Origin: an uncultured Pelagibacteraceae bacterium
Lineage (GTDB): Bacteria > Pseudomonadota > Alphaproteobacteria > Pelagibacterales > Pelagibacteraceae
Direction: 5' to 3'
Assembly: GCA_902591535.1 (NCBI GenBank)
Contig: CACJBA010000001.1
Coordinates: forward strand, 124,001-188,000
Length of the DNA stretch: 64,000 nucleotides
Positions 7,178 through 39,156 of this stretch are shown here, piece after piece. The notes below the pieces were generated by a model. That model worked only from the letters and a program-made list of their open reading frames with translations, did no database searches and was not told where the DNA came from. How positions within the stretch are numbered: the first letter of the stretch is position 1; each line of letters starts with the position of its first letter. The translations under genes and the position numbers were made by a program.

Positions 7178-8111
7178 CTATTTTGATATAATCAGGTCAG
7201 GTATCAACAGTACTTTTCAAGATAAAGGTAGAGAGCACCTTTATCACATTGGTATTCCATTTAGTGGTGCTATGGACAATAGAAATTATCTCATGGCTAA
7301 CAAACTTGTTGGTAATAAATTAGATTCAGCGGTGATAGAGTTTGCTTATCAAGGTCCTCACATTAAGTATTCAGGAGAAAAAATTAATTTTGCTATTACT
7401 GGAGACGTGATTTTTAAAATAAAAAAAGAACATACTGAAATTGAAGGTAATTGTTATGAGAGCTATCAAATTGAAAATGGAGATGAAATAAATATTATTT
7501 CTACAAATAAATCAGTTTATGGCTATTTAGCATTTGGTGGTGAATTTGATATAAAATTTCAATGGAATAGTTGCTCTATAAATACGAAAGCTAATATCGG
7601 AGCTAATAATGGAAAAAAATTAGATACAGGGCAAAGAATTAATTTAAAAAAAATTAATTCAAATATGGATATTAAAAAGATTAATTACATAAATACAAAA
7701 ATAGAAAATATAAGAGTCATAAAAGGTACTAATTTTGATTATTTCTCAGAAGAAGGAAAAAAAATATTTTATGAAAAAGAATTTATAGTATCAAAACTTT
7801 CAGACAGAATGGGGATGAGGTTAGAAGGGCCAAAAATAGAAAATATTGTGAATACCAACATAAAATCAGAGGGATTGATCAAAGGCGTAATTCAGGTACC
7901 TGCAGATGGAAATCCAATCATAATGCTTTCAGATCACGGCACTATCGGTGGCTATCCAAAAATTGGAGTTGTGGCTAGTGTTGATTATGACCGATTAGTG
8001 CAAATGTCTCCAGGTTCAAAAGTAAAATTTAAAGAAATTAATTTATCTGATGCACAGACACTTTTTAAGTTATATGAAATGGAAACTCAAAATTTGCTAT
8101 CACAAATTTAA
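7167..8111 (+). CDS. pxpC: 5-oxoprolinase subunit C (KipA-like)
   Basis: A 314-residue protein of the KipA / allophanate hydrolase subunit 2 family, the partner of PxpB. The family N-terminus is clear (RSGINSTFQDKGRE followed by HIGIPFSGAMD), as are the later SDRMGMRLEG and the block GLIKGVIQVPADGNPI with LSDHGTIGGYPKI. The length is normal. It begins inside pxpB and its TAA overlaps the ATG of the following permease by one base. The overlap points to one transcript, pxpB-pxpC-DMT permease. Confidence 0.88.
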   Translation: MSNNYFDIIRSGINSTFQDKGREHLYHIGIPFSGAMDNRNYLMANKLVGNKLDSAVIEFAYQGPHIKYSGEKINFAITGDVIFKIKKEHTEIEGNCYESYQIENGDEINIISTNKSVYGYLAFGGEFDIKFQWNSCSINTKANIGANNGKKLDTGQRINLKKINSNMDIKKINYINTKIENIRVIKGTNFDYFSEEGKKIFYEKEFIVSKLSDRMGMRLEGPKIENIVNTNIKSEGLIKGVIQVPADGNPIIMLSDHGTIGGYPKIGVVASVDYDRLVQMSPGSKVKFKEINLSDAQTLFKLYEMETQNLLSQI

Positions 8112-8983
8112 TGAATTTTTTAACAAAAATACCAGGACCTTTTTTAGTTTTTTTGGGAGCATGTGCATTAAGTTTTGGGGGCTTAATCGTTAAGTCTTTT
8201 GATGGATCTACACTTTGGCAAATATTATTCTGGAGATCACTTTTCTTTATTGCAGTAATTACAATTTTTTTAATATTCACTTACAAAGGAAAAATTTTCA
8301 GCGCTCTTTATAAATCTGGGATACCAGGATTTATAGGCGGAATAATTTTATCTATTGGATTTGCTAGCTATGTATTTGCTATGTACGAAACAACAGTAGC
8401 AAATGCAAACTTTATAATACAAACGCAAGCTTTGTTTTTAGCAATTTTTGGTTATGTATTTTTAAAAGAAAAAATTTCTAAGCTTACGTTAACTTGTATT
8501 ATTACAGCAGTGGTTGGTATAATTTTAATGTTAGGAAGCTCAGTGACAGTAGGTCAAATGACTGGAAATCTAGTTGCATTTATTATGCCAATCTCATTTG
8601 CAATATTAATTTTAATTGTTAGAAAATATCCTAAAGTCGATATGATACCTTTGCAACTAGTTGCTGGGATTTTTGCAACATTAATAGGCTTGTTCATGTC
8701 ACCAAGTATTATTGTTTCTTCAAATGATATTTTTTTAGGTTTTGTTGCGGGATTTTTTCAAGTTGGGCTTGGCTTTATACTTATAACAATTGGTGCGAGA
8801 TCAACTGCCTCAGCAATTGTTGGAATAATTATGTTAACTGAAGCAGTTTTAGGACCTTTTTGGGCGTGGATGTTTGCAAATGAGGATCCGCCACTTTCAG
8901 TATTATTTGGGGGCGCTGTAGTTATAACCGCTGTAGTTATACAGTCTTTATCTCCATTAATTGTTAAAAAGTTAGCTAAATAA
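8111..8983 (+). CDS. DMT superfamily permease (EamA family)
   Basis: A 290-residue inner-membrane protein with ten predicted hydrophobic segments arranged as two EamA repeats (each begins with a short loop and contains a conserved internal FLKEKIS-type turn after the fourth helix). EamA proteins export or import small metabolites such as amino acids; the substrate here is unknown. Its start overlaps the pxpC stop (TAATG), so it is likely cotranslated with the 5-oxoprolinase subunits and may move a related compound such as 5-oxoproline or glutamate. That link is inference from position only. Confidence 0.82.
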   Translation: MNFLTKIPGPFLVFLGACALSFGGLIVKSFDGSTLWQILFWRSLFFIAVITIFLIFTYKGKIFSALYKSGIPGFIGGIILSIGFASYVFAMYETTVANANFIIQTQALFLAIFGYVFLKEKISKLTLTCIITAVVGIILMLGSSVTVGQMTGNLVAFIMPISFAILILIVRKYPKVDMIPLQLVAGIFATLIGLFMSPSIIVSSNDIFLGFVAGFFQVGLGFILITIGARSTASAIVGIIMLTEAVLGPFWAWMFANEDPPLSVLFGGAVVITAVVIQSLSPLIVKKLAK

Positions 8984-9009
8984 ATTCCACATTAAAATTT
9001 AAAATGTGC

Positions 9010-9015
9010 TATAAA
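9010..9015 (+). promoter_or_regulatory. Probable -10 element of the gcvT-gcvH-gcvP promoter
   Basis: TATAAA lies 7 bases before the first paired base of the glycine riboswitch, which would put the transcript start near base 9021-9022, exactly at the foot of aptamer 1. No convincing -35 hexamer is visible upstream. A short inverted repeat (CACATT at 8988-8993, AATGTG at 9003-9008) immediately precedes it and could be an operator. The call rests mainly on this position. Confidence 0.4.
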
Positions 9016-9021
9016 TTCTCA

Positions 9022-9160
9022 TACGGGAGAGACTATTTTTTAGCGCCGAAGGAGCAACCACCCCGGAAACTCTCAGGCAAAAGGACCGTACATATTAACT
9101 CTGGAAAGAGAATTATTCTCGCCGAAGGAGCAAATCTCTCAGGCACCAAGACAGAGGGGG
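9022..9160 (+). ncRNA. Tandem glycine riboswitch (two aptamers) upstream of gcvT
   Basis: Two glycine aptamers in series. Aptamer 1 spans about 9022-9090: closing stem TACGG/CCGTA (9022-9026 with 9086-9090), the conserved GCCGAAGGAGCAA and ACTCTCAGGCAAAAGGACC cores. Aptamer 2 spans about 9099-9156: closing stem CTCTG/CAGAG (9099-9103 with 9152-9156), GCCGAAGGAGCAA and CTCTCAGGCACCAAGACAG. The two share an 8-base linker (9091-9098). This is the textbook arrangement for glycine sensing ahead of gcvT and has been reported from SAR11 genomes. The output domain is described in the next entry; no intrinsic terminator is present between the aptamers and the start codon. Confidence 0.95.
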
Positions 9161-9178
9161 CACAGAAGAGTTAATATG
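9091..9178 (+). promoter_or_regulatory. Expression platform of the glycine switch: helix hiding the gcvT ribosome-binding site and start codon
   Basis: Bases 9091-9102 (CATATTAACTCT, the linker plus the first four bases of aptamer 2) are perfectly complementary to 9167-9178 (AGAGTTAATATG, which contains most of the ribosome-binding purines and the gcvT AUG at 9176-9178). This 12-pair helix and the closing stem of aptamer 2 (9099-9103 with 9152-9156) need the same bases CTCT, so they exclude each other in part. Glycine binding should close the aptamer stem and free the purine stretch AGAAGAG (9164-9170). That makes it a translational ON switch by inference; the complementarity itself is read directly. 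Confidence 0.65.
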
Positions 9179-10279
9179 GAAATAAAAAAAACATCTCTAA
9201 ATAAACTTCATCAAAGTAATAACGCTAAGTTTGTTGAGTTTGCCGGTTATGAAATGCCTATACAGTATAGCAAGGGCATTATTGAAGAACATAAATTCAC
9301 AAGATCACACTCTGGAATATTTGATGTGTCTCATATGGGACAGTTATTTATATATGGCGATGAAAACTTAACAGAGGAATTAGAAAAAATTTTTCCATTA
9401 GATTTAAAAAACTTAAAACAGAATTGCTCTAAGTATAGTTTTTTAATGAATGAAGATGCAGGAATTTATGACGATTTAATAATAACTAGAATTGAGGAGG
9501 GTTATTTAATAATCTTAAATGCTGCATGTAAAGATAAAGATTTTGAGATTTTATCCAAATTATTAGGTAAGAAATTTAAAATGAATTTAGATAATAATAG
9601 ATCCTTGATAGCAATTCAGGGACCTAAGTCAGTTGAAATTTTAAATTCAATTATTGATGGAGTTGATCAACTAAAATTTATGACAGGAAATTGGTTCGAT
9701 TCTGGTAATCAAAAATTATTTGTTACAAGATCAGGATATACAGGAGAAGATGGATTTGAAATTTCAATTTCCAACGATAATGCTGAAAAATTTGTACAAA
9801 ATTTAATAGAAAAGGGAGCACAACTTATAGGACTTGGGGCAAGAGATACCTTGAGATTAGAAGCCGGATTGTGTTTATATGGTCACGAACTAGATACAAA
9901 TAAAACACCAGTAGAGGCAAACCTTAGATGGGCAATCTCAAAATCTAGATTATCAAATGGAGGTTTTATTGGATCGAAAAAAATTATGAACCAAATGCAA
10001 GATGGAGTAAAACAAATAAGAGTAGGGATTAAACCTGAAGGCAGATTAATTGCTAGAGAAAAAACAAAAATATTTAATGATGCAGATACACAAATCGGTG
10101 AGATAACTAGTGGAACGTTTGGACCAAGTGTAAATGGACCTATAGCGATGGGTTATGTTGATAGTGAGTTTTCAAAAGTTAATACTAAAATTTTGCTTGA
10201 GGTCAGAGGAAAAAAATATCCAGCAAATGTTTGTGGATTACCATTTTATAAAAAAAATTATGTGAAAGGAGTAAATTAA
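9176..10279 (+). CDS. gcvT: Aminomethyltransferase, glycine cleavage system T protein
   Basis: T protein of the glycine cleavage complex: it transfers the methylene carbon from the aminomethyl-lipoyl group of GcvH to tetrahydrofolate and releases ammonia. At 367 residues it has the normal length. Visible family motifs are [28 protein letters not shown], the [14 protein letters not shown] stretch and [19 protein letters not shown] (the folate-site arginine region). The ATG follows the riboswitch directly and is itself part of the putative sequestering helix. The stop overlaps the gcvH start by one base (TAATG), so the switch should govern the whole T-H-P operon by coupling. Confidence 0.95.
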
Positions 10280-10659: not shown

Positions 10660-13529
10660 TGTTACATAATTCTCAAAAAGATTTTTTAAAAAGACACATT
10701 GGACCTTCAAATGAAGATCAAAATAAAATGCTCAAAGAGCTTAATTACAAATCACTAGATGATTTAATTAAAAGTACAGTTCCAGAAAAGATTCAATTGA
10801 AAGATGAATTAAATATTGGTGAATCAAACTCAGAATATGAAGCATTAAGAAAACTAAAAGCAATTTCAAAAAAAAATCAAATTTACTCAAACTTTATAGG
10901 GATGGGTTATTATGGTACTTACACACCATACGTAATTCTAAGAAATATTTTAGAAAACCCTGGTTGGTACACCTCTTATACACCCTATCAACCTGAAGTA
11001 GCTCAAGGAAGATTGGAAATGCTACTTAATTTCCAACAAATGATAGTTGATTTTACAGGAATGGATATTGCAAATGCATCTTTATTAGATGAAGGAACAG
11101 CAGCTGCAGAAGCCATGGGATTAAGTCATAGATTAAATAAAAAAGATAGCAATTTAGTTTTTGTATCAGAAAATTGTCATCCACAAACAATTGATGTAAT
11201 TCAAACACGAGCAGAACCAATGGGATTAAAAGTACTTGTTGGTGATGAAGATAAAGTATTAGACCAATTAAAAGAAGATATGGTTTGTGGTATTTTGCAA
11301 TATCCAGGAACATTAGGCGACATTAAAGATCCAAGTGAAGCAATTAGTAAAATTCACAAAAAAAATGGTAAAGCAATATTAGCTTGTGATTTATTAGCAC
11401 TTGCTAAGTTAAAAACACCAAGAGAATTAGGAGCAGATATCGCTGTAGGAAGCTCACAAAGATTTGGAATACCAATGGGATACGGCGGGCCCCATGCAGC
11501 TTTCTTTGCAACTAAAGATGAATATAAAAGATCTATGCCAGGAAGAATTGTAGGTGTCTCTGTTGATAGAAACGGAAACAAAGCATATAGATTATCATTA
11601 CAAACAAGGGAACAACATATAAGAAGAGACAAAGCTACAAGTAATATTTGTACTGCACAAGCTTTATTAGCAATTGTGTCAGCAGCATATGCTATTTATC
11701 ACGGTCCAGAAGGCATCAAAACTATTGCCGAAAGAGTTTCTCAATTAGCTAAAAATTTTGCTGATAAATTGAAGCAATCAGGATATGAGATTTATTCAGA
11801 TCATTTCTTTGATACTGTTACAATTGTAACTAAGGACAAAACAGATCAAATCTACAAAAATGCTTTAGACCAAAAAGTAAATATCAGAAAAGTAAATTCT
11901 GAAATGCTAGCAGTTTCTTTCGACGAAAAGAAAAATGTTTATAGGGTTAATCAGTTATTAAAAATTTTTAATGCAGCAGAATCAATCAAAAAAGAAGATC
12001 CAACAGTAAGTTTACCTAATTTACCAAAAAATTTGTTAAGAACTTCAAAATATTTAGAACACCCTGTTTTTAATTTGTATCATTCTGAAACTGAGATGCT
12101 TAGATATTTAAAAAAATTAGAAGATAAAGATATAGCTCTTAACAGAACTATGATTGCACTTGGCTCATGTACTATGAAATTAAATGCCACTGCAGAGATG
12201 ATACCTATTTCATGGAGAGAATTAGCAGAGCCTCATCCATTTGTGCCTGTTGAACAGATGGAAGGATATAGAGATTTATTCACTGATCTTAAAAATTGGC
12301 TAAGATCAATTACTGGATTTTCTGGAGTTTCACTTCAACCAAATGCAGGCGCTCAAGGGGAATATGCAGGATTAATGGTAATTAGAAAGTATCATTTAGA
12401 TAGAGGTGAGGAAAATAGGAATATATGTTTAATACCAAGCTCGGCACATGGAACCAATCCTGCTAGTGCACAAATGGTTGGAATGAAAGTTGTTGTTGTT
12501 GATTGTGATAAAGAAGGAAATGTTGATTTTGAAGATTTAAAGAAAAAAGCAGAAATGCATTCTGAAAATCTCGGAGCATTAATGGTAACTTACCCGTCTA
12601 CTCATGGCGTATTTGAAGAAAAAATTACAGATATATGTGAGTTAATTCATAAACACGGTGGTCAAGTTTATATGGATGGTGCAAATTTAAATGCACTTGT
12701 TGGTATAGCAAGACCTGGAAATTTTGGTCCAGACGTCTGTCACATAAACTTACACAAAACATTCTGTATTCCACATGGCGGTGGAGGACCTGGAATGGGA
12801 CCAATTGCATGTAAAAGACATTTACAGGTTTATCTGCCTAATCATCCAGTTGTTAAAGATTGTGGACCAGCCACAGGAATAGGAGCGGTTTCAGCGGCAC
12901 CTTGGGGAAGCTCAAGTATTTTATCAATTTCTTGGATGTATATAAAAATGATGGGTTCTGAGGGTTTGAAACTGGCTACTCAAGTTGCAATATTAAATGC
13001 AAATTATATTGCTCATAGACTTAAAGATCATTATCCAATTCTTTATAAAGGCTCAAACGGAAATGTAGCTCATGAATGTATAATCGATATACGTTCTATT
13101 AAAAGTGAAACAGGCATTACCGAAGAAGATATAGCTAAAAGATTGATTGATTATGGTTTTCATGCACCAACAATGTCATGGCCAGTAGCAGGTACAATGA
13201 TGATTGAACCAACTGAAAGTGAAAGTTTATCTGAGTTGGATAGATTTTGTGATACTTTGATTAGTATAAAATCAGAAATAGATATGATCAATTCAGGAAA
13301 ATTTGATAAAGTTGATAACCCAATTAAAAATGCACCTCATACTGATATTGAATTAGCCTCAAATGAATGGGGTCATAAGTATTCAAGAGAGCAAGCTGCA
13401 TATCCAGCAAAATTCTTAAAAGCAAATAAATTTTGGCCTCCTGTTGCAAGAGTTGATAATGTATATGGAGATAAAAATATTTTTTGTACTTGTCCAAGTA
13501 TGGATGAGTTTAAAGAAGATGCAGCATAA
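10659..13529 (+). CDS. gcvP: Glycine dehydrogenase (decarboxylating), P protein
   Basis: PLP-dependent decarboxylase of the glycine cleavage system, 956 residues, the single-chain form in which the two half-domains (GcvPA-like and GcvPB-like) are fused. The N-terminal RHIGPS and the FIGMGYY and TPYQPEVAQGRLE motifs are present; the PLP lysine is Lys700 within HINLHKTFCIPHGGGGPG. The protein is complete with no frameshift. It is the last gene of the riboswitch-controlled operon; the next gene starts only six bases downstream on the same strand, and no terminator is visible, so read-through into the lipid-modification cluster is possible. Confidence 0.96.
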   Translation: MLHNSQKDFLKRHIGPSNEDQNKMLKELNYKSLDDLIKSTVPEKIQLKDELNIGESNSEYEALRKLKAISKKNQIYSNFIGMGYYGTYTPYVILRNILENPGWYTSYTPYQPEVAQGRLEMLLNFQQMIVDFTGMDIANASLLDEGTAAAEAMGLSHRLNKKDSNLVFVSENCHPQTIDVIQTRAEPMGLKVLVGDEDKVLDQLKEDMVCGILQYPGTLGDIKDPSEAISKIHKKNGKAILACDLLALAKLKTPRELGADIAVGSSQRFGIPMGYGGPHAAFFATKDEYKRSMPGRIVGVSVDRNGNKAYRLSLQTREQHIRRDKATSNICTAQALLAIVSAAYAIYHGPEGIKTIAERVSQLAKNFADKLKQSGYEIYSDHFFDTVTIVTKDKTDQIYKNALDQKVNIRKVNSEMLAVSFDEKKNVYRVNQLLKIFNAAESIKKEDPTVSLPNLPKNLLRTSKYLEHPVFNLYHSETEMLRYLKKLEDKDIALNRTMIALGSCTMKLNATAEMIPISWRELAEPHPFVPVEQMEGYRDLFTDLKNWLRSITGFSGVSLQPNAGAQGEYAGLMVIRKYHLDRGEENRNICLIPSSAHGTNPASAQMVGMKVVVVDCDKEGNVDFEDLKKKAEMHSENLGALMVTYPSTHGVFEEKITDICELIHKHGGQVYMDGANLNALVGIARPGNFGPDVCHINLHKTFCIPHGGGGPGMGPIACKRHLQVYLPNHPVVKDCGPATGIGAVSAAPWGSSSILSISWMYIKMMGSEGLKLATQVAILNANYIAHRLKDHYPILYKGSNGNVAHECIIDIRSIKSETGITEEDIAKRLIDYGFHAPTMSWPVAGTMMIEPTESESLSELDRFCDTLISIKSEIDMINSGKFDKVDNPIKNAPHTDIELASNEWGHKYSREQAAYPAKFLKANKFWPPVARVDNVYGDKNIFCTCPSMDEFKEDAA

Positions 13530-13535
13530 TAATTA

Positions 13536-14774
13536 ATGAAAATTGCTGTTGTTGGGTCAGGGATTTCTGGACTGAGTGCTGCTTATTATTTATCTAAAAA
13601 ACATCATGTAGATCTTTTTGAACGTGAAGATCATTTTGGGGGACACTCTCACACAATAGATTTATTTTTTGATGAAAAAAAAGTTTCAGTAGATATTGGT
13701 TTTATTGTTTTTAATTTTCAAACTTATCCAAATTTAATTAATTTTTTTAAGGAAAATGATATTCAAATTGAAAAAAGCAATATGTCTTTTTCAGTTTCAG
13801 TAGATAATACAAATTTTGAATATTGTGGAAAAGGATTAAGTGGAATTTTCTCAAATAAATCAAATTTATTAAACATACAGTTCTTAAAAATGTTTTTTGA
13901 TATAATTAAATTCTATAAAAAAAGTGATCAAGTAAGTATATCCAATGATAAAATTACTTTAGGTGAATATTTAAAAATTAATAAATTATCTAAAACATTT
14001 GTCGATTATCATATAATACCAATGGTATCTGCAATTTGGTCTATGCCTCCTTATGAAGCGAGCAAGATGCCAATTAGTTTTTTTCTTAGATTTTTCCAAA
14101 ATCATGGTTTGTTTAAATTAAAAAATAGACCACAGTGGTACACAGTAACCAATAGAAGCAAAACTTATGTATGCAAAATACTTTCTCAAATAAGTGGTGA
14201 ACATTATAAAAATTATAAAATTACAAAAATAAAAAGGAAATCATCAGGATTAGATTTATATTATGGTGGAGAAAGTGAGTTTTTTGATTATGATAAAGTA
14301 GTTTTAGCGACTCATGCTGATGAAGCATTAAAGTTAATTGAAAATCCAACTGATGATGAAAATAATATTCTTTCGAATTTTAGTTATAAAGAAAATATAG
14401 CTTATATACATACAGATCAGCGGGCTATGCCAAAAAATAAAAAAGCTTGGTCATCTTGGAATTCATCAATAGATGACAAGAACCTGGAGAAAAATTCAAT
14501 TACATATTGGTTAAATTTATTGCAGAATTTAAAGTGTGACGAAAATATTTTCTTAACATTAAATCCTTACTTCAAAATTGACGAGAAAAAAATATTGAGA
14601 AAAGTAAAATTCACACATCCTTATTATGATCAAAAAGCATTAGATGCTCAATCAGAGCTTATTAAAATACAAAATCAAAAAGATTTACTTTTTTGTGGCA
14701 GTTATTTTGGTTACGGATTTCATGAAGATGGAATAAAATCATCTATTGAAATGCTTAAAAACCTTAATGATTAA
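13536..14774 (+). CDS. FAD-dependent oxidoreductase (COG2907-type, amine-oxidase fold)
   Basis: A 412-residue flavoprotein with an N-terminal dinucleotide-binding motif GSGISGLSAAYYLSKKH and the FEREDHFGGHSHT loop; the C-terminal FCGSYFGYGFHEDGIKSS is the FAD-closing motif of this family. It belongs to the group annotated as 'NAD/FAD-binding protein' that is almost always found with a DUF1365 protein and a CFA-synthase-like methyltransferase, as here. In Rhodobacter such genes have been tied to oxidative modification of methylated membrane fatty acids. The exact reaction here is not known. It overlaps DUF1365 by 8 bases. Confidence 0.8.
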   Translation: MKIAVVGSGISGLSAAYYLSKKHHVDLFEREDHFGGHSHTIDLFFDEKKVSVDIGFIVFNFQTYPNLINFFKENDIQIEKSNMSFSVSVDNTNFEYCGKGLSGIFSNKSNLLNIQFLKMFFDIIKFYKKSDQVSISNDKITLGEYLKINKLSKTFVDYHIIPMVSAIWSMPPYEASKMPISFFLRFFQNHGLFKLKNRPQWYTVTNRSKTYVCKILSQISGEHYKNYKITKIKRKSSGLDLYYGGESEFFDYDKVVLATHADEALKLIENPTDDENNILSNFSYKENIAYIHTDQRAMPKNKKAWSSWNSSIDDKNLEKNSITYWLNLLQNLKCDENIFLTLNPYFKIDEKKILRKVKFTHPYYDQKALDAQSELIKIQNQKDLLFCGSYFGYGFHEDGIKSSIEMLKNLND

Positions 14775-15531
14775 TTCTTGTATATATAACGGAAGTGTAA
14801 TCCATAAAAGATTTAAACCTAAAATACATTTTTTTAAATATAAAGTATTTTCACTATTTATTGATCTTTCAGAACTTAATGAGCTAAATAAAAAATTAAG
14901 ATTTTTTTCGTCAAATAAATTTAATCTAATTAGTTTTTATGAGAAAGATCATGGTGAGCGTGATGGCTCATCTCTTTTTGAGTGGGTAAAAAAAAATCTA
15001 ATTAATAACGAAATCAATACAGATAGTATAAAGGTTAAACTTTTGTGTTATCCAAGAATATTAGGTTATGTTTTTAATCCACTGAGTATTTTTTTTGTAT
15101 ACGATAAAAATGATAATTTAATATCTATTTTATATGAGGTTAAAAATACATTTGGCGAGCAACATACATACGTTTTTAAAGTGGAAGGACAAAATAAATT
15201 AATTCAAAATAATTGCTCAAAGAAATTTCATGTTTCACCATTTATTGAAATGGATTGTAATTATTTTTTTAGGATATTAAATCCACAACAGAAGTTATCA
15301 GTTGTAATAGATCAATATGATCGAGAAGGAAAAATTCTTTTCGCATCCCAAGACGGTGAAAGATCTGATTTGACAAGTAAAAACTTAATGAATTCTTATT
15401 TAAAACACCCTTTAATGACATTTAAAATTATCTCTGCGATACATTTTGAAGCGTTTAAATTATGGATTAAAGGAATTAAATTTATTAAGAAAAAATTTAA
15501 AATTAAAAATAATATAACAATAGAAAATTAA
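14767..15531 (+). CDS. DUF1365 family protein
   Basis: A 254-residue cytoplasmic protein of the DUF1365 family (COG3496), recognised from the early VIHKRFKPKIHFFKYKVF, the CYPRILGYVFNPLSIFFVYD block and the later HVSPFIEMDCNYFF. The biochemical role is not established, but the family is a constant partner of the FAD protein and CFA-like enzyme found on either side here. The ATG at 14767 is preferred (it overlaps the preceding stop by 8 bases); another ATG 21 bases earlier lies deeper in the upstream gene and adds residues unlike the family. The TAA overlaps the next ATG by one base. Confidence 0.8.
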   Translation: MINSCIYNGSVIHKRFKPKIHFFKYKVFSLFIDLSELNELNKKLRFFSSNKFNLISFYEKDHGERDGSSLFEWVKKNLINNEINTDSIKVKLLCYPRILGYVFNPLSIFFVYDKNDNLISILYEVKNTFGEQHTYVFKVEGQNKLIQNNCSKKFHVSPFIEMDCNYFFRILNPQQKLSVVIDQYDREGKILFASQDGERSDLTSKNLMNSYLKHPLMTFKIISAIHFEAFKLWIKGIKFIKKKFKIKNNITIEN

Positions 15532-16709
15532 TGTTTTTAAACAATGCAGCAGATAAAATAGTTTTTAAATTTCTGAATAAAATAAGCCATGGTTATCTTG
15601 AGCTAACAACATATGACGGAAAAGTTTTAAAGTTTGGAAATCCAAATGAAAAATTGTATGCAAATATTTTAATCAAAAAACCAGATTTTAATTATAATTT
15701 AATTAGAGGCGGTAGTATTGGATTTGCTGAAAGTTATATGAGAGGTGAATTTGAAACTGATAACTTATCAAATTTAATTGAATTAACTGCAAGAAACATA
15801 GAAGTTATATATAAATTCTCCGGTCTTCTCGATTTTCCAATAATCAATTTTGTTAAAAATAAAATAATCAAAAATACAAAAAGCCGAAGCAAAGAAAATA
15901 TTGCCAAACATTATGATCTGGGTAATGATTTTTTTTCTCTTTGGTTAGACGATACACTTACTTACTCAAGTGCTATTTTTGATGATAAGTCGAAAAATCT
16001 TTCTGATGCTCAAAATAACAAATATCAAAAATTAATTGATCTAATTAAACCAAATAATGGTGACAAAGTTTTAGAAATAGGATGTGGTTGGGGAGGTTTT
16101 GCTGAGTACTTAGGTAAAAAATACGATGTTAAACTAGACTGTATTACAATATCAAAAAAACAATTTGAATACGCAAAAGAAAGAATTTTTAATTGTGGTT
16201 TAAACGAAAAAGTAAATATTGAAATAAAGGATTACAGAGATCTTAAAGGCAAATACAATTCTATAGCCTCTATAGAGATGATTGAGGCTGTTGGTCAAAA
16301 TTATTTAGAGGGTTATTTTAAAACTATTAAAACTAATTTATCTGATGGTGGTAAAGCAGCTATTCAAGCAATTACCATCGATGATAAGCTGTTTGATAGA
16401 TACAAAAACAAACAAGATTTTATTCAAAAATACATTTTTCCAGGTGGTTTCTTACCAAATAAAAATAGTATTAATCGATATGTTTCTGACAACGGTTTAA
16501 CTATAAATTCATATATTTCTTATGCTGACCATTATGCGAATACATTGGCTATATGGCGAAAAGATTTTTTAAAAAAATGGAATTTAATTAAAAATCAAGG
16601 TTTTGACTTAACATTTAAAAGAATGTGGGAGTTTTACCTTTCTTATTGTGAAGCAGGATTTAAATCAAAAAATATTGATCTGATTCAATTTTCAATGCAG
16701 AACAAATAA
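15531..16709 (+). CDS. Cyclopropane-fatty-acyl-phospholipid synthase-like methyltransferase
   Basis: A 392-residue SAM-dependent enzyme acting on unsaturated acyl chains of membrane phospholipids. The SAM-binding motif VLEIGCGWGGFAEYL is at residues 180-194, preceded by AKHYDLGNDFFSLWLDD and followed by KYIFPGGFLPN and ADHYANTLAIW. Compared with E. coli Cfa, three positions of the bicarbonate site can be aligned by eye: Cys139 is Ser147, Glu239 is kept as Glu252, and His266 appears to be Gln279; Tyr317 is kept as Tyr335. These changes suggest a methylase that stops at a methylated or methylene product rather than a normal cyclopropane synthase, but COG2230 is diverse and this is inference. 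Confidence 0.85.
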   Translation: MFLNNAADKIVFKFLNKISHGYLELTTYDGKVLKFGNPNEKLYANILIKKPDFNYNLIRGGSIGFAESYMRGEFETDNLSNLIELTARNIEVIYKFSGLLDFPIINFVKNKIIKNTKSRSKENIAKHYDLGNDFFSLWLDDTLTYSSAIFDDKSKNLSDAQNNKYQKLIDLIKPNNGDKVLEIGCGWGGFAEYLGKKYDVKLDCITISKKQFEYAKERIFNCGLNEKVNIEIKDYRDLKGKYNSIASIEMIEAVGQNYLEGYFKTIKTNLSDGGKAAIQAITIDDKLFDRYKNKQDFIQKYIFPGGFLPNKNSINRYVSDNGLTINSYISYADHYANTLAIWRKDFLKKWNLIKNQGFDLTFKRMWEFYLSYCEAGFKSKNIDLIQFSMQNK

Positions 16710-33310: not shown

Positions 33311-35023
33311 TTGGCAGATAACGATAATTTTAAAGAGATTTTTGATGAAATAAACAAAAATTTGAGTAGCAGAAATTTTGTTTCTGCTGAAGCAAATCTT
33401 AATAAAATTTTAGAGGTAGATCCAAATAATATAAAAGCTCTTTTTTTGTTAGGATCTATTTTTCTTGAAATTAAAGAATTTGATAGGTCAAAAAAAATTT
33501 TAAAAAAAGTAATCGATTTAGATCCTAATATTGCAAATGCTAATAGTAATCTTGGTGTTGTATATATAAATTTGAGAGAGTTTGATTTTGCAAAAAAATA
33601 TATTTTAAAAGCTATTGAAATAAACCCAAAACATCTAGATGCTTATAACTACCTTGGGCTTATTTATAGTGAATTAGGTCAGTTTGAAAAAGCATTGAGT
33701 AGTACAAAAAAAGCTTTGGAATTAAATGAAAGCTATTTTCAAGGTTATAACAACTTAGGTTTGATATATAAAAAATTTAATTTTTTTACCGAAGCAGAAT
33801 TTAATTTTAAGCAAGCAATTACAATTAATTCTAAGTTTACTCAATCTTATTACAATTTAATGGAACTTTATGAGAAATCTAATGAAAATAAAAAATTAGA
33901 AAATATCATTAGAGATTTTGAAAAAATATTTAATAAAAATTCTATTTCAACACTTTATGAAGGACACATATTATATAAAAAAGAATTTTTCTTAGATGTA
34001 ATTGAAAATTTAAAATCTTTTATAATTAAAAATGATAATAAACTTGAAATAGATAGAGTAAATCTTTTAGCCAAAAGTTATGACAAGATTGATGATATTG
34101 AAAATGCTTTTTTACACTTTGAAAAAACTAATATATTGAACTTAAATTCTAAAAATAAAGAAATAGATAAAAATAATTTTTTAATAAAAATTAATAACAG
34201 AATTAATGTTTTTAAAAAAATTAAAGATGATAATTCTTTAGTAGCTGAAACGAATTATGACTATAAACCTGTATTTATGATAGGTTTTCCAAGATCCGGA
34301 ACTACTCTGCTAGATACTATACTGAGAAGCCATCAAATGATCGAGGTAATTGAAGAAAAACATATGATGGAAAAATTAATTAATTCATTAAATAGACTTA
34401 CAAATAATTCGATTGAAAAAATTCATAATATTGACGATCAGCATATTAAACAATTAGGAAAAAATTATTTTAAAGAATTACATTCTTATTCTAAAAATTT
34501 TGACACATCAAAAGTTTATATTGATAAGTTACCATTCAATATAATCTATATCGCAGAGATAATCAGAGTTTTTCCTAATGCAAAATTTATAATTTCTATT
34601 AGACATCCTTGTGACTGTGTTCTTAGTTGTTATATGCAGAATTTTAATTTAAATGACTCAATGTCAAATTTTCTTAATTTAAATGATGCAGCAAATATTT
34701 ACAATGTGGTAATGAATTTACTAAAAATATATAAGAAAAATTTTGTGTTTAACTTTAAAGAAATTAAATACGAAAATATAATCTCAAATTTCAACTTTGA
34801 GATAAAAAATGTGCTAGATTTTCTGGATCTACCATGGGATGATAAAGTGATTGAATATCAAAAAACTGCTATAAGTAGAGAACGTATCTTTACTCCTAGC
34901 TATGATCAGGTTATAAAACCTCTTTATTCACAATCAATAGCTAGATGGGAAAAATATAAAAATAAATTATCAAAAGTTTATCCGATACTAGAACCTTGGA
35001 TTAAAGAATTTAATTATGAATAA
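33311..35023 (+). CDS. TPR-repeat protein with C-terminal sulfotransferase domain
   Basis: A 570-residue protein. Residues about 10-310 hold a series of TPR helix pairs (for example AYNYLGLIYSELGQFEKAL, GYNNLGLIYKKFNFFTEA), and residues about 318-570 are a PAPS-dependent sulfotransferase: the 5'-phosphosulfate loop FMIGFPRSGTTLLDT near residue 322 and the 3'-phosphate motif IISIRHPCDCVLSC. The start is TTG at 33311, seven bases after the creatinase stop; no ATG is near, so the N-terminus is less certain. It overlaps the amidinotransferase gene by eight bases. Sulfotransferases of this type are known in marine bacteria; the acceptor is unknown. Confidence 0.85.
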   Translation: MADNDNFKEIFDEINKNLSSRNFVSAEANLNKILEVDPNNIKALFLLGSIFLEIKEFDRSKKILKKVIDLDPNIANANSNLGVVYINLREFDFAKKYILKAIEINPKHLDAYNYLGLIYSELGQFEKALSSTKKALELNESYFQGYNNLGLIYKKFNFFTEAEFNFKQAITINSKFTQSYYNLMELYEKSNENKKLENIIRDFEKIFNKNSISTLYEGHILYKKEFFLDVIENLKSFIIKNDNKLEIDRVNLLAKSYDKIDDIENAFLHFEKTNILNLNSKNKEIDKNNFLIKINNRINVFKKIKDDNSLVAETNYDYKPVFMIGFPRSGTTLLDTILRSHQMIEVIEEKHMMEKLINSLNRLTNNSIEKIHNIDDQHIKQLGKNYFKELHSYSKNFDTSKVYIDKLPFNIIYIAEIIRVFPNAKFIISIRHPCDCVLSCYMQNFNLNDSMSNFLNLNDAANIYNVVMNLLKIYKKNFVFNFKEIKYENIISNFNFEIKNVLDFLDLPWDDKVIEYQKTAISRERIFTPSYDQVIKPLYSQSIARWEKYKNKLSKVYPILEPWIKEFNYE

Positions 35024-36133: not shown

Positions 36134-37186
36134 ATGGCAAAAATAAAAATTAAAAGAGAGCGTATTAAATTCGCCTCAGACAATGTAGCTGGTGCTTGTC
36201 CTGAAGTATTAGATGCAATTTTAAAAGCTAATGACGGAGACAGTACCCCTTATGGTAACGATCCAATTTCAACTGAATTGCAAAATAAGTTTTCAGAAAT
36301 ATTTGAAAAAGAAGTAATTGTTTTTCCTACTGCTTCAGGAACAGCGGCTAATGCTTTAGCTTTATCTACAATGACACCTTCTTATGGAAATATTTATTGT
36401 CATAAGATGTCCCATATAAATACTGATGAATGTGGTGCGCCTGAATTTTATACAGGAGGAGGAAAATTAGTTACTTTAAACGGAATAATGGGAAAAATTA
36501 CTGCAGAGGAGTTAGATCAGTCAATAGGGGGAAAAGGAATTGTTCATCATACCCAACCTTCATCAGTTAGTATTACACAAGTTTGTGAGACAGGTGAAGT
36601 TTATCAACTAGATGAAATTAAAAAGATATCTGATATAGCGCACAAGCATAACCTAAATATTCATATGGATGGAGCAAGATTTGCCAATGCATTAGTTTCC
36701 TTAGATACAACACCTGCAGAAATGACATGGAAATCAGGTATTGATGTATTATCTTTTGGAGCAACAAAAAATGGTTGTCTAGCAGCAGAGGCAATTATCT
36801 TTTTTAAAAAAGAATTAGTCGGAGATATTGCTTTTTTAATGAAAAGAGCGGGGCATTTATTATCTAAAATGCGTTTTGTATCAGCACAATTGGATGCTTA
36901 TATTTCAAATGATGTGTGGTTAAGAAATGCAAAACATGCAAATAAAATGGGTAAAAAACTTAGTGATGGATTAAGTAAACATAATGATATTGAAATTGCT
37001 TATCCAACAGAGGCGAATGAAGTATTTGCGAAATTTCCAAGAAATAAGATAGAACATTTAAATTCTGAGGGTTACAAAATGAATGAAGAAGAATTAGACG
37101 GAAAAGCTGTCAGATTAGTTGCTGCATGGAACACTAAAGATAGTGATGTAGATCAATTATTAGATACTTTAAAAAATTCTAACTAG
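36134..37186 (+). CDS. ltaE: L-threonine aldolase (low-specificity, beta-eliminating lyase family)
   Basis: A 350-residue PLP enzyme that splits threonine or allo-threonine into glycine and acetaldehyde. The PLP lysine is Lys212 in the motif SFGATKNG; FPTASGTAANALAL, HINTDECGAPEF and HMDGARFANAL are the other family blocks. It starts three bases after the amidinotransferase stop and would supply the glycine that enzyme uses. The last codons overlap the end of the convergent 75-residue gene by eight bases, and there is no terminator between the two operons. Confidence 0.9.
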   Translation: MAKIKIKRERIKFASDNVAGACPEVLDAILKANDGDSTPYGNDPISTELQNKFSEIFEKEVIVFPTASGTAANALALSTMTPSYGNIYCHKMSHINTDECGAPEFYTGGGKLVTLNGIMGKITAEELDQSIGGKGIVHHTQPSSVSITQVCETGEVYQLDEIKKISDIAHKHNLNIHMDGARFANALVSLDTTPAEMTWKSGIDVLSFGATKNGCLAAEAIIFFKKELVGDIAFLMKRAGHLLSKMRFVSAQLDAYISNDVWLRNAKHANKMGKKLSDGLSKHNDIEIAYPTEANEVFAKFPRNKIEHLNSEGYKMNEEELDGKAVRLVAAWNTKDSDVDQLLDTLKNSN

Positions 37187-37406
37187 GATTTTGTTTTAAG
37201 AACTCAATGTATTTTATTACTTCTGCATATTTTTCATCAGGAATATCCTTGTAACTTGCATTAAATTTGCTTTTCACACAAATAGCAACATGAGCGTAGG
37301 GGTTTCTGCCTTTAGGATGATTTGGATGATCGGGCAATTGTCCTACCAAATAATCGCCAGCTTCCTGAATAATTTTCCAGAGTTTACTTGCGTTTTCTTT
37401 GTTCAT
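37179..37406 (-). CDS. Small uncharacterised protein (75 residues)
   Basis: A short protein, not recognised, with a helical N-terminus (MNKENASKLWKIIQEAG), a polar middle PDHPNHPKGRNPYAHVAICVK containing a His/Pro-rich stretch, and a helical end (EKYAEVIKYIEFLKQNPS). There is no signal peptide or membrane segment. The ATG at 37406 sits one base after the stop of the secreted 582-residue protein, so expression is coupled to that gene. An upstream in-frame start at 37484 lies inside the neighbour and is rejected. The reading frame has codon use like the surrounding genes, which supports it being real. Confidence 0.65.
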   Translation of the reverse strand: MNKENASKLWKIIQEAGDYLVGQLPDHPNHPKGRNPYAHVAICVKSKFNASYKDIPDEKYAEVIKYIEFLKQNPS

Positions 37407-37407
37407 A

Positions 37408-39156
37408 TTATTGACCCAAAGACTCTTTTGCTTCCTCAACCGTATAATTTGTTCCATGTTCAGCATTATATGCAGCAACGGCATCTGCGAAACTACTGTA
37501 TCCTAAACCTTGAGCTGTTGCTTCTAGATCAACCGAAACACCAGCACTTGTTGCTGCCCTAATTGTATCAGCTACTTCTTGAAGGCTACTGTTGGCAGCA
37601 GAGGCAATTTGACCAGCATCAAAAGAACTTATAGAGCCAGATTGGAGAGCGTTAATGATATCTACATTATCTTGATATGCTGAAGCGTATTCTTCTACAG
37701 ACCAGTTAGCTCCATGTTGAGCGTTTGCTAAATCAGTTAAATCAGAATAGTTGTTAATATCTAATCCGTAAGTATCTCCAAAAGATCTAGCAAAATCATC
37801 AAGAGTAAAAGAAAATTCAAATGACTGTGTATTTAAATTTAAATCATTTTTAATCTGAGAAAAACTATCAGCATTTGAGTCAATTAAATTACTAAATTCC
37901 TCTAAATCTATTAATTCTTTAAAATTTTTCATTGCCAATTGTGCTTTTATTGACTCAATTTCATCTTCAGATAGGTTTACTTCAATTCCTGCTTCATTAA
38001 CTATTGATTTAGGGATTGGATTTTTCCAGGCATTTGCCCAATCACTCAGTTTCCATTTTTTCATTTCAGATGCTGAAGCAACCATTAAATTAATTGTTTC
38101 TAATTTTACGTTTAGCTCTTCCTTATATACATTTAAAAATCTATTTACTGGAATATCTGAATTTTCTAAATTTAATATATTTAGTTGAATCTCGTTTGAT
38201 TTAAGATTTTTATTAATTTTCATCGATTTAGTCACCATCCCTAGTATTTCTAATTCTTCCTGTTGAAAATCATCAAAATTTGCATTTGATAAATCTTGAT
38301 CAAATTTTTTTGGTATTTTGTCTTTTTTTATATTTTGAAGTACAAATTCTGAAATTTTATATCCACTTAATAACGCTTCAAGATTCTTATCTCTTAATTT
38401 TTCAATTTCTATCACAAATGAAGTTAAAAGCTCATAATCTTTATTATCTTTATTTTTTTTCAAATCTTTTGATAAAGCCTTAAAAATTTTATTATATTCT
38501 TTATTAAATTTTTTTTCATTCAATCTCATATTTTTTTTATCCTCAGTAAGAGATTTTAATTTAGAGATATTTTTGGAAATTTTGTTATGTGTTTTTATTA
38601 ATTTTTTTTCTTCTTTAGAAAGTTTTATAGTTTTAATTTCAGCTTGATTTAAAAGTTTATACAATGTGTAGTATCTTTTAATAGCTGTTTCAGGACTATC
38701 ATTTAATGACATGCCTAATGCTTCTCTCATAGACTTTTTTGCTTTGTTTAAACCATATAATTTTTTTATATTTTTTTTAGTTGCAGCATTTACTTTGGGA
38801 TATTTTCTCTCAAATGTTTCAAGAGATTTTTTGTTTTCTTTTAATTGTTGCATATAAAAATATTCAAAATATGCCATCCCTAAGATGACTCTATCTGTAT
38901 ATTTTTCCATTAATCCTTTTTGTGTTATAAATATTTCCACAAATTTTTTATTTGCAATTCTTTGCTTTTTATAAAAATCTGAAGCTACTTCAGGAAACAT
39001 CCCTATTGGAGAAAAGTCTATTTTTTCAAAACTACCTATATCATCAAGATCATCTAAAAATACACCTAATTTAATCTCTTTGTCTGACCTTTCACTGCCA
39101 TTGGCAATATTGAAAATTAAAAATACAAAAAAAAAGAAAAATATTTTGTTAATCAT
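37408..39156 (-). CDS. Secreted repeat protein with long helical N-terminal region (unknown function)
   Basis: A 582-residue protein not recognised as any family. It has a signal peptide (MINKIFFFFFVFLIFNIANG, cleavage near residue 20). Residues about 60-330 are Lys/Leu/Glu-rich and strongly helical, probably a coiled coil; residues about 440-582 are Ala/Asp/Asn-rich with few lysines. Two copies of a motif close to N-A-x-H-G-x-N-x-(S/T)-V-E-E occur, near residues 477-489 (NAQHGANWSVEEY) and 562-574 (NAEHGTNYTVEEA). Start overlaps the upstream Gfo/Idh/MocA stop by one base. The composition break suggests a two-part architecture. Confidence 0.75.
   Translation of the reverse strand: MINKIFFFFFVFLIFNIANGSERSDKEIKLGVFLDDLDDIGSFEKIDFSPIGMFPEVASDFYKKQRIANKKFVEIFITQKGLMEKYTDRVILGMAYFEYFYMQQLKENKKSLETFERKYPKVNAATKKNIKKLYGLNKAKKSMREALGMSLNDSPETAIKRYYTLYKLLNQAEIKTIKLSKEEKKLIKTHNKISKNISKLKSLTEDKKNMRLNEKKFNKEYNKIFKALSKDLKKNKDNKDYELLTSFVIEIEKLRDKNLEALLSGYKISEFVLQNIKKDKIPKKFDQDLSNANFDDFQQEELEILGMVTKSMKINKNLKSNEIQLNILNLENSDIPVNRFLNVYKEELNVKLETINLMVASASEMKKWKLSDWANAWKNPIPKSIVNEAGIEVNLSEDEIESIKAQLAMKNFKELIDLEEFSNLIDSNADSFSQIKNDLNLNTQSFEFSFTLDDFARSFGDTYGLDINNYSDLTDLANAQHGANWSVEEYASAYQDNVDIINALQSGSISSFDAGQIASAANSSLQEVADTIRAATSAGVSVDLEATAQGLGYSSFADAVAAYNAEHGTNYTVEEAKESLGQ

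Follow-up and report, generated by a model that had tools for sequence, protein, structure and literature searches.

We identified a 582-residue protein encoded in the window – the 64,000-nucleotide stretch of Pelagibacteraceae DNA analyzed here – that sequence comparison strongly supports as a natural fusion of two proteins, named A and B, which are encoded by adjacent genes in other Pelagibacteraceae. The gene, delimited by its open reading frame and by nine orthologue loci (L001-L009), occupies 37408..39156 on the minus strand (582 codons plus stop). From its N terminus, the protein runs through a signal-peptide-like hydrophobic stretch (residues 1-20; 39097..39156, minus strand), a basic A domain defined by single-sequence matches to separate A proteins and by alignment (approximately residues 21-216; 38509..39096, minus strand), a B core defined by single-sequence and iterated profile matches (residues 212-416; 37909..38523, minus strand), and an acidic, clade-specific C-terminal tail recognized in alignments (residues 440-582; 37411..37839, minus strand). 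On these matches, the A-B family is characterized by an A domain followed by a B core, fused or in adjacent genes. The target has both, and we put the probability that it belongs to this family at roughly 95%.

The length, strand and ATG start of the open reading frame were as originally predicted, and the same start position is used in seven of seven complete aligned orthologues. Median dN/dS across 28 pairs from eight sequences was 0.173 for A, 0.115 for B and 0.115 for the tail, low values that mark it as a real gene under purifying selection. The split composition attributed to the protein was borne out: residues 21-216 are 19% Lys with a net charge of +17, while residues 440-582 are 1% Lys and 16% Ala with a net charge of -18. 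A comparison of codon usage between the parts found codon choice to be alike in all of them (measured against the usage of the window itself, z is 0.84 in A, 0.95 in B and -0.95 in the tail; 59 window genes range from -2.21 to 2.14). By this measure, nothing indicates that the tail was recently acquired from a foreign source. The tail has a higher GC content (38% versus 24%), which we attribute to its amino acid composition because GC3 is similar among the parts (0.175 in the tail versus 0.158 and 0.151).

Matches to the whole protein were present in 28 of 297 Pelagibacteraceae genomes, and in five of these 28 (the window's own, G290, G127, G207 and G050) they were full-length or nearly so. 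Most other matches were confined to all or some of the first ~220 target residues, often within separate proteins 217-295 amino acids long, and three covered later residues alone (228-509, 244-402 and 254-434), in large separate frames. Inspection of the neighborhoods of these partial matches revealed that the two kinds are adjacent genes. Consistent with the target containing both, single-sequence comparisons matched it to separate A proteins with E values down to 2e-25 (L017) and to separate B proteins at 3.9e-9 (L031) and 4.4e-6 (L030). Starting from the B protein of L052, an iterated profile reached target residues 175-413 with an iE of 7.5e-64, a value that refers to a small set already enriched for the family; the later A1, A3 and A2 profiles include the target, whose own matches to them arise by construction. 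The Lys-rich N-terminal half had been read as a coiled-coil stalk: its A part is basic and the protein is mostly helical, but this half comprises two separate conserved domains that are two genes elsewhere.

A B-core profile gave 35 strong matches (E of 2.3e-26 or better) in the same 297 genomes, and A was fused to (9 cases, target included) or directly upstream of (26 cases) every one of them. Twelve weak rows (E from 1.9e-4 to 8.1e-4), limited to the first 59-70 profile positions, were dropped; 11 were the sole match of their genome, which reduced the number of positive genomes from 40 to 29. An A search in 247 genomes of the order, with matches in 21, contributed four further split loci and two further fused ones (a G353 match was left unread). 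A precedes B on the same strand in 30 of 30 split loci, and with gaps computed from the first start codon of each frame the two are separated by -41 to +5 bp in 29 (16 overlapping) and by 204 bp in one. At L042 an A gene (13477-14190) has no B following it; within 13477-15793 there is instead a B-like upstream frame, cut by the contig end, whose sole match is to the B profile seeded with the target (iE 2.4e-31) and which was unflagged in the locus reading.

In a 47-row tree built from A together with the B core (a quick, unrooted reconstruction with SH-aLRT support only and several long branches), the fused proteins fall into two clades apart from each other, one of 13 rows and one of 4, each with an SH-aLRT of 100. 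At least two changes between the fused and split states are required, which, in a tree with no true root, could represent either two fusions or a fusion plus a fission. Genes that always sit side by side and have been joined repeatedly offer good evidence of products that act together, and on this basis we expect A and B to do so.

SAR11 genomes are strongly reduced. Despite this reduction, approximately one in ten sampled Pelagibacteraceae genomes (29 of 297) retains at least one copy of the A-B pair. Among the 127 genomes with a completeness of 90% or more, 13 have a strong B-core match; missing data therefore do not fully account for the patchiness. Judged by these profile searches, A-B is an accessory family seen only in Pelagibacteraceae in the samples searched. 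The window's genome was alone in matching A among 289 genomes of the class, and alone also in matching the tail in draws of 270 genomes from the class and 279 from the phylum – samples that include few Pelagibacteraceae and in which a limited number of candidates was scored per genome. The tail profile found no match in viral contigs, nor did the whole protein in phages and plasmids. Within Pelagibacteraceae, the profile of the target's tail, which we refer to as the HGxN tail after its repeated motif, matched 5 of 297 genomes, including the window's own; a match in G004 (E 0.0068) looked by eye like an autotransporter passenger and was dropped. The window's genome also encodes a second A-B pair (G000:C1:82930-86036; L060:4931-8037), whose 819-residue B protein has a Met/Gly/Ala-rich tail (Met 16%, Gly 22%).

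The pair is also present in the cultured Ca. Pelagibacter ubique strain HTCC1062, where its function is testable, as two overlapping genes (G026:C1:1117612-1119218). Two papers describe a 445-nt space between SAR11_1164 and SAR11_1165 (1120412-1120856; PMC2704228) and a spacing of 248 nt below SAR11_1163 (PMC5069961); because these exactly equal the gaps in G026, the second being the gap to A, we assign A to SAR11_1162 and B to SAR11_1161 (L119:13613-14572; G026:C1:1117612-1118571). An excerpt of PMC2217521 lists SAR11_1162-1173 as hypervariable region 3, composed of 'unknowns', which places the pair at the edge of that region. An excerpt of PMC2864753 names SAR11_1161 'sbcC, ATPase involved in DNA repair' – a probable misannotation, as the protein has no P-loop and a signal-like N terminus. 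With the A-B assignment, two genes at the region's edge that had been listed as unknown or misnamed acquire a concrete identity; one of them, according to the latter excerpt, rose under iron limitation. SAR11_1162 and SAR11_1161 resemble the target in being A and B of the same family, and differ from it in being two overlapping genes rather than one, in a short Cys-ended B tail, in a Cys pair in A and in the lack of an HGxN tail.

Tails vary in kind with clade and in length from 72 to 1406 residues, with B proteins reaching 1648 residues. HGxN tails occur in 13 fused proteins, target included, and the acidic HGxN kind is confined to this fused clade; the other four fused proteins carry a ~480-residue tail with terminal cysteines. 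Short Cys-bearing tails are found at 6 loci and Met/Gly-rich tails of 566-638 residues at 14 (including the second pair in the window's genome). The 10 remaining loci have tails of other kinds (116 to 1406 residues), among them several long ones made of coiled coil or repeats. In the L056 B protein (7685-9331), the tail appears by eye to hold several ~31-residue helical-looking repeats. Whole-protein Pfam matches of this protein to DUF6074 (55.0 vs a cut-off of 27.2), RuvA_C (34.9 vs 24) and UBA_6 (25.4 vs 23.5) were rejected because no single stretch passes the cut-off and many weak repeats are summed; PADLOC and NCBIfam matches of long B proteins were set aside as coiled-coil artefacts.

Charge polarity is common to all of these forms. 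A is net positive and the tail net negative in 47 of 47 loci, although contig ends or the choice of start truncate some A and tail pieces (at L050, at L134 and in part of the Met/Gly clade). Per 100 residues, A ranges from +6.1 to +15.7 and tails from -2.7 to -17.8; HGxN tails lie between -10.6 and -15.2, and many tails outside the target's clade are mildly acidic (-2.7 to -8). Judged by the distribution among window proteins (mean 1.3, sd 3.6 per 100 residues; of 60, none at -10 or below and four at +8 or above), HGxN and short tails stand out in charge while the milder tails alone do not. Cysteines were present in both A and tail at 15 of 46 loci (L050 omitted as cut), in neither at 20, in A only at 10 and in the tail only at 1; these loci are related to each other, and we claim no link between the two.

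The HGxN tail contains exactly two copies of the predicted motif N-A-x-H-G-x-N-x-(S/T)-V-E-E, which pattern search placed at residues 478-489 (37690..37725, minus strand) and 564-575 (37432..37467, minus strand), one to two residues away from the original prediction of 477-489 and 562-574. The tail's own composition would yield 4.5e-9 copies, and local alignment of residues 445-507 with 508-582 scored 63, a value reached in 0 of 5000 shuffles (shuffle maximum 57). The C terminus is a distinct module. The repeat is present in relatives: copy 2 reads (H/Y)-G-T-N-Y-T in 13 of 13 HGxN tails (and H-G-T-D-Y-T in L003, a cut orthologue outside the 13), while copy 1 varies among HGAN, YGAN, HNAN and YGTN in seven aligned rows.

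Structure prediction rendered the target helical throughout, with very low overall confidence (full-length pLDDT 43.8) and a reliable, well-predicted portion comprising approximately the last 35-40 residues. Around copy 1 the predicted helix breaks off at residue 481 and restarts at 487, and around copy 2 it breaks off at 567 and restarts at 573, with pLDDT values of 56-62 around copy 1 and 87-89 around copy 2. Helices are classically stopped by a following glycine and started by a preceding S/T-V-E-E. Given these signals and the predicted helix ends, HGxN in the model reads best as a helix-turn-helix joint, used twice, with H-G closing one helix and S/T-V-E-E capping the next, rather than as an active site.

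As originally suggested, the protein does not belong to a familiar family: no Pfam, NCBIfam, PHROG or PDB sequence or fold match to the target stands, and profile and structure searches with the C-terminal region likewise returned neither family nor fold. A weak Pfam DAXX match at residues 205-262 (E 7e-4; 19.9 bits vs a cut-off of 27) was rejected as a probable artefact of charged helices. Hits against PDB sequences were ascribed to composition, both for the tail (best E 0.032, to FakB3) and for the B core (best E 0.0048; hits to designed helical proteins, to colicin and to haemagglutinin stems), and PHROG matches had E values of 0.019 or worse. In fold searches, no hit reached an E of 0.001, a result that is not evidence of a new fold. 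Closer comparison with 110 chains produced a best Z of 4.7 over 79 residues (rmsd 3.4; alanyl-tRNA synthetase), rejected as within the range of unrelated helical models. SHOCT scored 22.6 bits in L059 and 18.0 bits in the L042 A protein, both under the Pfam cut-off of 27, and was unreported for the target. A literature search, mostly beyond subscription journals, found no description of the A-B family.

We next considered what the family might do. The target has a signal-like N terminus, as judged by hydropathy (12-residue Kyte-Doolittle mean of 2.76, with no transmembrane-like stretch further on), and is probably exported. Hydrophobic N termini recur in 16 of the 17 fused proteins and in 29 of the 30 separate B proteins. 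Of 31 separate A proteins, nine lack one by this test; eight of the nine belong to the clade with Met/Gly tails, in which a misplaced start call or a truncated contig may be the reason. From the observed fusion, linkage, polarity, tail variety, patchiness and mosaicism, we infer a model of export, complex formation, a base-and-tail arrangement and an envelope or surface role. A and B would both be exported and form one complex outside the cytoplasm, in which the B core pairs with A. The basic A domain might hold the negatively charged envelope, or fold or dock B, and the acidic helical tail would be an extended, exchangeable end facing the periplasm or the outside. Clade-specific tails could then reflect a diversifying envelope or surface trait (toward phages, grazers or neighbors) or stress-dependent envelope protection. 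We regard this whole mechanism – a helical assembly, exported and associated with the envelope or surface, whose acidic end can be exchanged – as our leading proposal, at somewhat under even odds.

Known variable-tail exported envelope proteins have a constant front, a variable repetitive end and patchy presence. A-B proteins are alike in these respects and unlike in that their constant part spans two genes and lacks an anchor or barrel; no sequence or fold relation was found.

The alternative that survives best, which we nonetheless consider unlikely, is a periplasmic stress or holding protein (chaperone-like, or an envelope spacer) with no surface role, its tails being disordered or helical spacers. 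The protein is helical, highly charged and unanchored, and its dN/dS is low. The PMC2864753 excerpt, moreover, reports a 4.59-fold increase of the SAR11_1161 protein in iron-limited cells on day 28 (P 0.011). The same excerpt does not include SAR11_1161 in its day-18 rows, and its passage on early iron-stress transcripts names 1157, 1158, 1163 and 1164 but not 1161 or 1162; nor does SAR11_1161 occur in the main text of the sulfur-limitation study (PMC5069961). Clade-specific tails of up to 1406 residues, patchiness and variable neighborhoods would also go unexplained.

A further version of our proposal, which we hold only tentatively, is a lineage-specific, modular SAR11 surface or envelope system in which an exported A plus B base displays one of several unrelated acidic tails, exchanged by recombination and gene fusion, as part of a variable outer identity toward phages and neighbors in some of the most abundant bacteria of the ocean. 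For the leading proposal, too, the lack of a recognized route across the outer membrane counts against the surface, since no lipobox, membrane anchor or barrel was seen. Cysteine is absent from its first 30 residues, and among the seven complete aligned orthologues occurs only in L002, at residue 7 within the hydrophobic stretch; Pfam gave no match at E up to 1 to a C-terminal beta-barrel translocator of the type V autotransporter kind. A tail dN/dS of 0.115 is also lower than strong diversifying selection on this tail would give, and the very low confidence of the full-length structure model likewise counts against the leading proposal.

The original prediction raised the possibility that a module binding carbohydrate or a surface had been added to a coiled-coil stalk; such a protein, acting together with the sugar-type dehydrogenases next to it, we now find improbable. 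The C-terminal module is indeed distinct, and in the window the neighboring genes adjoin with a one-base overlap. Coupling to two dehydrogenases and a dioxygenase is not a conserved arrangement, however. With neighbors named by eye or by match to window genes, such genes were found in L001 (two dehydrogenases upstream, across a 208-bp gap), in L004 and L008 (one extra gene between dehydrogenases and target orthologue) and in L007 (two extra genes); dehydrogenases are not beside the orthologue in L002, L005 or L006, and L003 and L009 are truncated where their contigs end. The distant relatives L057, L058 and L059 have other neighbors, and the L058 gene overlaps another dioxygenase-like gene. 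The tail matched no carbohydrate-binding family or fold in Pfam, NCBIfam or a PDB fold search made with a weak structure model, and motif copy 1 is not strict (YGAN, HNAN, YGTN).

More doubtful again is a released antagonistic protein in which a constant A-B front delivers a variable effector end, as in polymorphic toxins. The constant front, variable end and patchy distribution fit, but no toxin family scored above the Pfam cut-off in the scanned proteins, the two toxin models that match L056 repeats fall below it, and the tails examined are long, repetitive or low-complexity. Finally, a DNA-repair ATPase of the SbcC kind has almost no chance of being correct, despite the published name of SAR11_1161 and the coiled-coil character that long B tails share with such ATPases (L041 matches SMC, Rad50 and SbcC models far below cut-offs), since A-B proteins have a hydrophobic N terminus and are probably exported, a Walker-A motif ([AG]x4GK[ST]) occurs in one of 78 A/B proteins (L127, in its Met/Gly tail), the target, outside that set, has no G-K pair, and NCBIfam matches are absent for the target and the short B protein.

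Recombination inside the gene and variable neighborhoods were both seen. The L002 orthologue (L002:5977-7713) is a mosaic that is 98-100% identical to the window over codons 31-150 and near-identical to L005 from approximately codon 271; L005 itself is 94-100% identical to the window over codons 271-582. By these identities, the L002 orthologue is a recombinant with a window-like 5' part and an L005-like 3' part. Both flanks differ among the nine orthologue loci. Downstream, and outside the protein, a 75-amino acid gene (37179..37406, minus strand) is called in eight of nine loci (not L005): it lies directly next to the orthologue in the window, L001, L003, L006 and L008, and farther off, with other genes between, in L002, L004, L007 and L009. 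A separate observation concerns a gene at 33311-35023 of the window, TPR-sulfotransferase-like by eye, which lies between 405- and 371-amino acid genes that are directly adjacent in L001, L003, L006, L007, L008 and L009; it was either gained in the window or lost in the others. We also observed in L006 (1414-2361) genes of 124 and 190 amino acids, with starts that by eye resemble SAR11_1163 and SAR11_1164, which are stress-responsive genes of HTCC1062; the two L006 genes lie on the opposite strand to the target orthologue, ~3.6 kb away from it.
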